This document shows, piece by piece, positions 9,420-21,350 of a DNA stretch of 64,000 nt. The translations under genes and the position numbers were made by a program. The notes under the pieces were generated by a model, which made no database searches, was not told where the DNA came from, and saw nothing but the letters and a program-made list of their open reading frames with translations. Source of the DNA: Methylophilaceae bacterium (lineage in GTDB: Bacteria > Pseudomonadota > Gammaproteobacteria > Burkholderiales > Methylophilaceae). Numbering within the stretch: the stretch's first letter is position 1; every line of letters starts with the position of its first letter. The stretch covers positions 1-64,000 of the forward strand of contig JAPKBG010000005.1 of assembly GCA_028823485.1 (NCBI GenBank), in the 5' to 3' direction.

Positions 9420-9426
9420 GGTTTTG

Positions 9427-9846
9427 ATGTTAGGTAAAATGATGGCTAGGCTCTGCGTAACGTTTTTCTTTTTGTTGTTAACATCGCAATCTTTCGCAGA
9501 GGAAGGTTAGCTGATTGTAACCCCAAATGAAGTGCTTAACCTCAATGAAGCCATCTCTTTAGTGGTCGTTAAATCCAATGACGAAATAAGCTGGCCAGAA
9601 AAGTTAAGTTTAACCCCTTCCAATCAAGTGGATAGTGAAGTCGTAGAGTTGCTCGCGACAACAGAAAAAAGCAGCACAAGACGTCATTACAAAGGGAAGG
9701 GCACATCAACCTTTAAAGGTGATGTGCTTGCCCAGCTCACCAACTTCTTCTTTTGGACGTCGACGACTGATACTTCTGGCTTTTGCATGGCGGTCTACGC
9801 AGACAGGAGCTATTCGATCTGGAAAACACCCCTGGCATTTACGTGA
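9427..9846 (+). pseudogene. Broken secreted-protein gene, possibly the N-terminus of an outer-membrane phospholipase A
   Basis: An ATG at 9427 opens a convincing signal peptide (MLGKMMARLCVTFFFLLLTSQSFAEEG) that hits an in-frame TAG at 9508-9510. The same frame then continues for about 112 codons, of which the track shows only the part after GTG 9532. The body (SWPEKLSLTP, then STRRHYKGKG, then FKGDVLAQL) resembles, from memory, the N-terminal domain of betaproteobacterial PldA proteins. No catalytic domain follows, and the reading frame ends at 9846. So the gene is interrupted and truncated; the family name is tentative. Confidence 0.5.
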
Positions 9847-10045
9847 CATGTGCTCACTTGAACCTTGATTTTTAAAGTCTGAAAAAAGATGGAATCTGCG
9901 GTTCTGGATTTACCTAGGCTTACCAACAGCACACTTTCATACCATGTCCAAAGCGCACCAATCCAATTTTAGTAATGCGGGACCTATGAGGGGTAGCGCT
10001 TGTTGTTTTTAAATCTAAAAAAGTAGTGGTAGGTAGTATAAATAG

Positions 10046-10076
10046 ATTGTAATGGTATATTGATTATTGTTACAAT
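10046..10076 (+). promoter_or_regulatory. Palindromic promoter/operator of umuDC
   Basis: Perfect 7-nt inverted arms ATTGTAA (10046-10052) and TTACAAT (10070-10076) are separated by 17 nt. The same letters form a plausible promoter: TTGTAA as -35 and TACAAT as -10 with an 18-bp spacer. The predicted transcription start then falls at or next to the umuD ATG at 10083, and no Shine-Dalgarno is visible. No classic CTGT-N8-ACAG LexA box was seen. A dyad on top of a promoter suggests repressor control. Confidence 0.45.
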
Positions 10077-10082
10077 ATTCAA

Positions 10083-10703
10083 ATGAATAATGACATTAAA
10101 ACACAATCAAGTCGTGGCGGTAAACGCCTCAATGCTGGACGTAAAACAGGGACAGGTAAGTTTGGCGAACCAACAGAAGTAGTGCGTGTTCCCACCAGTC
10201 AAAAGCCTATTATTGTTGACTTCTTAGCAGCATATCAGCATAAGCAACAATTAGAGGAAGCTATAGATATCAGTTCATTGATGTTACCAGCTTTAAATCA
10301 CAAAACGCTCAATATTCCGCTGTTTGCTTCTAAAGTACCAGCAGGCTTCCCTTCGCCAGCAGATGACCATGTTGAAAAGAGGCTGGATCCCAACGAATTT
10401 CTCATTGATCAAGCAGATGCTACTTTCTTTGTAACAATACAAGGGGAGTCTATGATTGATGTTGGGTTAATGCCTGGTGATAAAGCAGTTGTTGATCGCT
10501 CTAAAATGCCGAGTATTGGCGATATTGTATTAGCTGTTGTAGATGGTGACTTCACCATTAAAGTGCTCAACCGTGGAAAAGATGGCAGTCCTAGATTATT
10601 GCCTGCTAACGCATCAGGTAAATATCAGCCAATCGAAATCAAAGAGAATATGACTTTTGAAGTTTGGGGTGTTGTTACAGGTTCATTTAGACGTTTTAAA
10701 TAG
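10083..10703 (+). CDS. umuD: UmuD-like S24 autoprotease subunit of DNA polymerase V, long form
   Basis: A 206-residue S24-family protein, against about 139 in E. coli UmuD. The C-terminal part keeps the self-cleavage geometry: an Ala-Gly site in [11 protein letters not shown] (residues 87-88), Ser123 in GESMIDVG and Lys160 in FTIKVL. The spacings of 35 and 37 residues from the Gly to Ser and from Ser to Lys are the same as in E. coli UmuD. The extra N-terminus ([18 protein letters not shown]) is basic and could bind DNA. RecA-stimulated cleavage would activate the UmuC polymerase. umuC follows 8 nt later. Confidence 0.92.
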
Positions 10704-10711
10704 ATCACATT

Positions 10712-11998
10712 ATGCGTAACATTGCATTAATTGATGTAAACAACTTTTACGTTAGTTGTGAGCGTGTCTTCAATCCTAAACTACTCAACAAGCCAATCGT
10801 TGTTTTGTCCAATAATGACGGATGTGCAGTTGCGAGAAGTGATGAAGTCAAAGCATTAGGGGTGGCCATGGGAGCGCCTTGGTTTAAGCTCAAAGATTTA
10901 GCAAAGCAGCACAATATTTTAGCTTACTCATCAAATTATGCGCTGTATGCTGATATGAGTAATCGGGTGATGTCGATACTTAAGCATTACTCACCTGATC
11001 AAGAGGTCTATTCAATCGACGAGTCATTCTTAGACCTCACAGCGTTTAAATCAAAAGATTTAGTCGCGTACGGACAACAAATGCGGCAGCGGATTAATCA
11101 ATGGACAGGCTTGCCTGTTTGCGTTGGTATTGGTTCAACTAAAACGTTATCAAAGCTGGCTAATCATTGTGCAAAAAAACGTCCAGACTTTAATGGTGTT
11201 TGCAATCTAAATAGCATGGCACCTGAGACAATTAACCAAATGTTCACTGAGATTGATGTTGGTGAAGTGTGGGGTGTTGGCAGAAAGCTTGTGCTTAAAT
11301 TGAATGCGCTTGGTATCAATACTGTATTAGATCTTAAGCGAGCCAATCCAGAACGTCTACGCCAGCAATTTAGTGTTGTCATGGAAAAGACCATCCGTGA
11401 ACTCAATGGTATTGTTTGCATCGAGCTGGAAGAAATTACACCACCAAAACAGCAAATAATGAGTTCAAGAAGCTTTGGTTATTCAGTGACTGATTACAAT
11501 AGTTTAGCTCAATCGATAACCTTGTATATGAGCCGTGCTGCAGAGAAGCTACGACGGCAGCAATCTTATGCTGGATCAGTTTATATCTTTATTAGAACGA
11601 GTCCATTTAAAGAAAATGAACGCTTCTATAGTAACGGTAGAACGATTTCCATGCCTAGCCCAACTGATGACACTAGGAAGCTAGTTAACGTCGCACTATG
11701 GGGATTAAAACAGATTTATGTGCCTAATTTAGGCTATGCAAAGGCTGGAGTTATGCTTGGAGAGCTTGTCGCAGCCCAAGGCATACAAACAGACTTATTT
11801 AGCACGCAAAAAAACACACCCAAATCGGATCGGCTCATGGCTATGCTGGATAGCATTAATAAGAAGATGGGCAAAGAATCAATCAAATTGGCCAGTGAAG
11901 GATTTAGCCGGCCGTGGAAGATGAAGCAGGGCAACAAGAGTCCGTGCTATACGACGAATTGGGATGATAATATTCAAGCATTAGATTTAGAACAATAA
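10712..11998 (+). CDS. umuC: DNA polymerase V catalytic subunit (Y family)
   Basis: A 428-residue Y-family polymerase for SOS translesion synthesis. It starts with [17 protein letters not shown] carrying the first catalytic Asp, then has the SIDESFLDL motif near residue 101 with the second acidic pair, and [21 protein letters not shown]4113-like C-terminal tail is present ([13 protein letters not shown]). QTDLF near residue 360 matches the consensus beta-clamp-binding pentapeptide. It is in a two-gene operon with umuD. The surrounding decayed DNA suggests this pair sits in an accessory patch, although umuDC can be chromosomal and native. Confidence 0.95.

Positions 11999-17986: not shown

Positions 17987-21350
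<3,364 letters not shown>

Follow-up and report, generated by a model that had tools for sequence, protein, structure and literature searches.

The window, a stretch of 64,000 nucleotides from a Methylophilaceae genome (1.64 Mb, 86% complete), carries a umuD-umuC operon whose features are listed in Table 1. The letters preceding umuD read AGATTGTAATGGTATATTGATTATTGTTACAATATTCAA and run directly into the ATG. We placed the start of umuD at this codon, which takes in the conserved N-terminal domain of the protein, because the upstream in-frame stretch contains no other start codon before a stop. About 600 bp (9420-10045) lie between an rRNA methyltransferase gene and umuD, and this region, whose only open reading frame is one of 104 aa with no match, looks decayed. 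An earlier note on this DNA had drawn attention to an inverted repeat, ATTGTAA-N17-TTACAAT, with promoter-like hexamers in front of umuD. The letters are exactly as described (arms at 10046-10052 and 10070-10076), and a promoter scan agrees, returning TTGTAA-18-TACAAT with a score of 9/12 and a TG preceding the -10 hexamer. The note had also reported that no LexA box is present, and indeed CTGT-N8-ACAG with up to one mismatch is absent between 9850 and 10130.

Table 1. Features of the umuD promoter and of the umuDC operon in the window
Feature	Position	Strand	Basis
23-bp operator TTGATTATTGTTACAATATTCAA	10060..10082	+	10/11 pairs complementary, odd centre T10071, adjoins umuD ATG
Operator core GTTAC (= GTWAC of the Acinetobacter UmuDAb operator)	10069..10073	+	Conservation and published core
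Extended -10 element TGTTACAAT, hexamer TACAAT at 10071-10076, within the operator	10068..10076	+	Conservation and promoter scan
TTGTAA, possible weak -35, in the left arm of the earlier palindrome; conserved only in the nearest relative	10047..10052	+	
umuD ATG and predicted leaderless transcription start	10083..10085	+	
umuD, 206 aa: N-terminal domain of about 75 aa and S24 peptidase domain	10083..10703	+	
Putative DNA-binding N-terminal domain, invariant GG-R-GR...E-T...R-P, common to Acinetobacter and Legionella UmuD	10083..10307	+	
Ala87-Gly88 self-cleavage bond	10341..10346	+	Invariant, 71-sequence alignment
Catalytic serine Ser123	10449..10451	+	71-sequence alignment
Catalytic lysine Lys160	10560..10562	+	71-sequence alignment
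umuC, 428 aa, same operon as umuD, 8-nt gap	10712..11998	+	

When 83 umuD upstream regions of the family were aligned at the ATG, the information content was confined to positions -23 to -1. The family consensus, TTGATTATTGTTACAATAATCAA followed by ATG, is an odd-centred, almost perfect palindrome of 23 bp, and the right arm TTACAAT of the earlier repeat is its middle-right part. With up to three mismatches allowed, chance alone would place no copy of the 23-mer in the window, and the genome contains a single one. At the same threshold it is present in 67 of the 150 Methylophilaceae genomes, 116 of which contain UmuD homologues, while control matches are zero. The distance between operator and ATG is 0 in 56 of the 83 upstream regions, 1-3 nt in 15 and 23 nt in 7, the last group mostly reflecting a second operator copy that adjoins the ATG (double operators). 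In some relatives the operator has 22 bp and an even centre, or occurs in tandem at a spacing of 22-23 nt. Two loci (L105, G086:C1:836300-838200; and L045, in G104) hold a tandem umuD pair, in which one copy has a double operator with a spacing of 22-23 nt. Paired changes preserve the dyad, for example GTAATTATTGTTACAATAATTAC, CTGATTGTTGTAACATCAATCAG and TTGATTTCCGTTACAGAAATCAA, and dyad pairs 1, 3, 6, 8 and 10 covary beyond shuffles; here, as in the co-occurrence tests below, the sites were chosen by similarity to the consensus and the statistics ignore phylogeny. Elsewhere in the window, a perfect 23-bp dyad, GGCCGCTAATTCAATTAGCGGCC, lies at 18436-18458, about 500 bp past an smc-like open reading frame, and is probably a terminator or another palindrome.

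The position of the operator bears directly on the transcript. The hexamer at -12 to -7 puts the predicted start on or beside the first base of the ATG, and the TG of the extended -10 is conserved across the family umuD promoters, whereas the -35 is not. An extended -10 box (TGTTACAAT) in the operator core fits this lack of a conserved -35. Shine-Dalgarno-like 4-mers occur in only 1 of 79 family umuD leaders, in line with the earlier note, which had seen none before the window's umuD. This absence alone proves little, since such motifs are uncommon throughout the window (9 of 43 first-ATG open reading frames). Still, the -10 element located 6-7 nt before the start codon and the lack of a Shine-Dalgarno together give the layout of a leaderless gene. 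The fixed spacing between -10 and ATG across the family thus supports the prediction, already made in the earlier note, of a leaderless or near-leaderless umuD mRNA; its exact 5' end would be at or next to the ATG. We found no leaderless umuD described in the literature available without subscription.

The strongest alternative keeps UmuD as the repressor and gives the mRNA a leader, with the true promoter located upstream and TACAAT being mere operator sequence. In 28 of 80 relatives, the hexamer at -12 to -7 is indeed poor, agreeing with TATAAT at three positions at most, and a conserved -35 is lacking. However, 47 of the 80 have five of six matches at the correct spacing to the ATG, the extended -10 TG is conserved and there is no Shine-Dalgarno. 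The same abutting layout is moreover found at stand-alone umuC genes (operator 0-1 nt from the ATG in G007, G139 and G142). We therefore consider a leadered mRNA unlikely.

Stand-alone umuC is not the only further gene type with the operator. In relatives with several polymerase copies, it also precedes other umuDC operons that encode a short UmuD, and five such multi-copy relatives (G007, G139, G142, G086 and G098) display a regulon of error-prone polymerases. The genome of the window has the operator at its single umuDC operon only. Short-UmuD loci that lack the N-terminal domain, retrieved as family controls, were devoid of the operator in 5 of 5 cases, while the few short-UmuD operons that do carry it in multi-copy genomes are apparent targets. 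The earlier note had proposed a search at other damage genes; with the corrected 23-bp motif such a search is positive at other umuDC and umuC genes in relatives. Single weak matches at G001, G113 and G128 and in clostridial and cyanobacterial genomes were rejected as apparent chance matches, coding sequence or repeats.

The operator was also observed next to two types of gene outside the polymerases. It adjoins the ATG of a 72-aa AlpA/HTH_17-like open reading frame (L194:199-437, in KB13, and L175:5736-5760), the only non-polymerase Methylophilaceae gene found with an abutting operator. Two filamentous-phage-like contigs with a Zot-family open reading frame (L230:2180-2280, IMGVR_UViG_2740892474_000001; L234:445-540, IMGVR_UViG_2651869775_000001) carry a set of three UmuD-type operators, spaced by about 26 bp, just upstream of a 148-aa open reading frame with no matching family. 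These contigs may be under the control of a host UmuD-type repressor.

To describe the protein, we relied on sequence comparisons and structure prediction. The window UmuD matches Acinetobacter plasmid UmuD over its full length in tblastn (43% identity, range 39-43%). Nine N-terminal residues (G12, G13, R15, G19, R20, E29, T31, R35 and P37) are invariant across Methylophilaceae, Acinetobacter and Legionella, as are A87, G88, S123 and K160 in the UmuD alignment. The N-terminal domain has no match in Pfam, in PDB sequences or among PDB folds. AlphaFold models it, with moderate confidence, as two short strands and one long helix; since the model is not clearly a helix-turn-helix or a ribbon-helix-helix, we claim no fold for it. 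In Acinetobacter, which has no LexA, UmuDAb is a UmuD with such an extra N-terminal domain and binds TTGA(N4)GTWAC(N4)TCAA in EMSA (PMC11332147).

We measured the spread of the operator beyond Methylophilaceae in two ways. The exact pattern TTGATTNNTGTTACANNAATCAA was scanned in about 85,000 species genomes with no gene used as reference, and returned 54 loci. Of these, 32 are umuD or umuC loci, most of them from Methylophilaceae, Acinetobacter and Legionellales. We then surveyed a spread of 369 genomes from the class, of which about 27 encode a domain-bearing UmuD, and sought the operator within 120 nt, allowing up to 3 mismatches out of 14. It was present at 22 of the 26 domain-bearing umuD genes tested in other families, and almost never in shuffles. 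The same tolerance detected it at 8 of 8 domain-bearing umuD genes from plasmid-collection records. The published UmuDAb operator was recovered at locus L150 of A. baumannii, which served as a check, and umuD genes on Acinetobacter and Legionella plasmids have the same operator type.

These data bear on a second alternative, in which the 23-bp palindrome is recognised by a different transcription factor, unrelated to UmuD, and UmuD is merely a target. The absence of any Pfam family or PDB fold matching the N-terminal domain would leave room for it. Yet the presence of the operator tracks the N-terminal domain of UmuD across many families, and the homologous Acinetobacter protein binds a matching operator (PMC11332147). 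We regard an unrelated factor as improbable, and UmuD itself as the most likely regulator.

In Acinetobacter and Legionella, 12-20 nt, often with GGAG, separate the operator from the umuD ATG. The leaderless form is thus a feature of the lineage. An operator that adjoins the ATG of umuD was found also in one genus of another family (L238-L240, f145/g169); the genomes with these loci have a full-length LexA as well. On balance, we favour the view that self-repressing UmuD is a widespread, perhaps ancient arm of the SOS response that is independent of LexA and occurs in many gammaproteobacterial families (in the GTDB sense), with its own, hitherto undescribed DNA-binding domain and its own operator (TTGAT..GT(N)AC..ATCAA), rather than an invention of Acinetobacter or Moraxellaceae. 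Operator, extended -10 and start codon would have been fused into a leaderless cassette twice, once in Methylophilaceae, where it also precedes stand-alone polymerase genes, and once in another family. In the literature open to us without subscription, we found no UmuDAb-like control described outside Acinetobacter and Moraxellaceae.

We also determined the LexA status of the hosts. None of the 150 Methylophilaceae genomes encodes a LexA above the TIGR00498 cut-off. Weaker LexA-like proteins are found in other genera of the family and in none of the genomes of the window's genus, where the DNA-binding helix-turn-helix domain of LexA is missing from all six genomes. In a search for S24 peptidases, UmuD was the sole match in the three relatives of the genus that had any; recA is present. 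A LexA above cut-off was found in one of the 22 genomes with the operator in which we looked for it. Within the class, full-length LexA is present in 8 of the 27 genomes with a domain-bearing UmuD and absent in 19, as compared to about 224 of 341 genomes with a LexA above cut-off in the class (P-value = 0.0003, Fisher test, which ignores phylogeny). About one third of the genomes in the rest of the class have no full-length LexA. A comparison against controls that already had LexA-like matches was discarded as biased, the class tally being fairer. Absence of a detectable LexA holds for the window's own genus and is not universal among domain-bearing genomes elsewhere.

The palindrome as originally drawn can now be placed. 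Perfect 7-bp inverted repeats with spacers of up to 30 nt number 208 in the window and about 172 in shuffles, and those with a 17-nt spacer number 5 versus 6.2. ATTGTAA-N17-TTACAAT with up to three mismatches has 120 sites in the genome as compared to 161 for a reversed control, and its one exact copy is the one at umuD. The search of the genome that the note had suggested at other damage genes thus fails with this motif, which we rejected as a regulon motif because its near copies are fewer than those of the control. As drawn, the motif is a chance-level repeat with no second exact copy and a commoner control, the outcome that the note itself had set against it. That these 31 bp are themselves the operator, spanning -35 and -10, is hardly credible: the repeat is exact in the window and also kept in the closest relative (G029), but it is at chance level as an inverted repeat, has no other exact copy in the genome, keeps its left arm in place in just 2 of 79 family promoters (the window and G029) and extends upstream of -23, where there is no information content. 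We give as little credence to the idea that the dyad folds into a translation-controlling RNA hairpin at the start of a leadered mRNA, since, although covariation of the dyad pairs is equally expected from RNA structure, the would-be loop GTnAC is the best-conserved part and is identical to the DNA-binding core of UmuDAb, and the -10 box lies within the dyad at a fixed distance from the ATG, so that most of the dyad would not be transcribed.

The earlier observation was therefore literally right and misframed: the operator is the 23-bp palindrome, the left half of which is not the -35. Its interpretation is partly supported: the direction was right, with a damage-type regulator other than LexA and a leaderless or near-leaderless mRNA, but the element was misplaced, and so was the stretch said to be covered. 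A bound regulator would cover the extended -10, the start site and the ATG, rather than both promoter boxes; the -35 is not conserved.

Our reading draws on the operator, which is conserved in sequence and position, is linked to the N-terminal domain and matches the UmuDAb operator, and on the lack of a detectable LexA in the genus. From these we infer binding, repression, relief by cleavage and the exact transcript start. It is highly probable that UmuD serves as a polymerase V subunit and also represses the operon that encodes it, and that RecA-stimulated self-cleavage relieves the repression and makes UmuD'. A UmuD dimer would bind the palindrome through its extra N-terminal domain. Because the extended -10 forms the core of the operator and the right arm ends at the ATG, bound UmuD would block RNA polymerase, hiding the -10, the start site and the start codon of a promoter that would otherwise make a leaderless umuD-umuC mRNA. 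Upon DNA damage, the RecA filament would trigger cleavage of the Ala87-Gly88 bond, removing the DNA-binding domain and opening the promoter. The same step would supply UmuD' to polymerase V. The published cleavage and binding data are those of UmuDAb of Acinetobacter (PMC11332147).

Control by UmuDAb has so far been described from Acinetobacter (Moraxellaceae), with the features of its operator considered unique to the genus. At the level of sequence, our corrected finding carries Acinetobacter-type control into many families, along with a predicted leaderless variant. A protein-operator pair found in Methylophilaceae, in relatives of Legionella and in many other families would represent a general LexA-free control of mutagenic DNA synthesis, in which repressor and polymerase subunit are combined in one self-cleaving protein. 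For methylotrophs of sea and fresh water that have very small genomes, it suggests a possible control of the mutation that DNA damage induces. The operator, the protein, the natural spacing variants, the tandem operators and the stand-alone umuC targets constitute a ready test set.

Compared to known systems, the closest is UmuDAb of A. baumannii and A. baylyi (PMC11332147, PMC4807011). It shares with the window UmuD the extra N-terminal domain, the S24 self-cleavage residues, a LexA-less host and umuDC or umuC targets that include its own gene; the Acinetobacter regulon, like that of the relatives described here, has the operator before further umuDC and umuC genes. Arms and core of the operator are identical to TTGA-N5-GTTAC-N5-TCAA of the window, whereas the spacers are N5 here, giving 23 bp, and N4 in Acinetobacter. 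There the operator is upstream of a leader, while here it adjoins the ATG with the extended -10 inside and probably no leader. The corepressor DdrR is reported to be unique to Acinetobacter (PMC11332147), and here umuD belongs to an intact umuDC operon in Methylophilaceae; without DdrR, repression by UmuD would have to work alone or with another partner. The LexA-repressed umuDC of E. coli has the same operon and the same RecA-stimulated S24 cleavage chemistry, but E. coli UmuD (139 aa, 8gmt) lacks the putative DNA-binding N-terminal domain, and here there is neither a detectable LexA nor a CTGT-N8-ACAG box. FddR of Francisella (PMC13148647), HdiR and the non-canonical LexA of Bacteroidetes (PMC8565304) are likewise non-LexA S24 proteins with small, autoregulated damage regulons. 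They are, however, phage-repressor-like or LexA-like and have other operators (GTG-N11-CAC for FddR), whereas here the repressor would be a polymerase subunit. Finally, bacterial leaderless mRNAs (PMC3160421) have a -10 box six bases from the ATG and no Shine-Dalgarno, as does umuD, where this layout is tied to one operator and conserved throughout the family.
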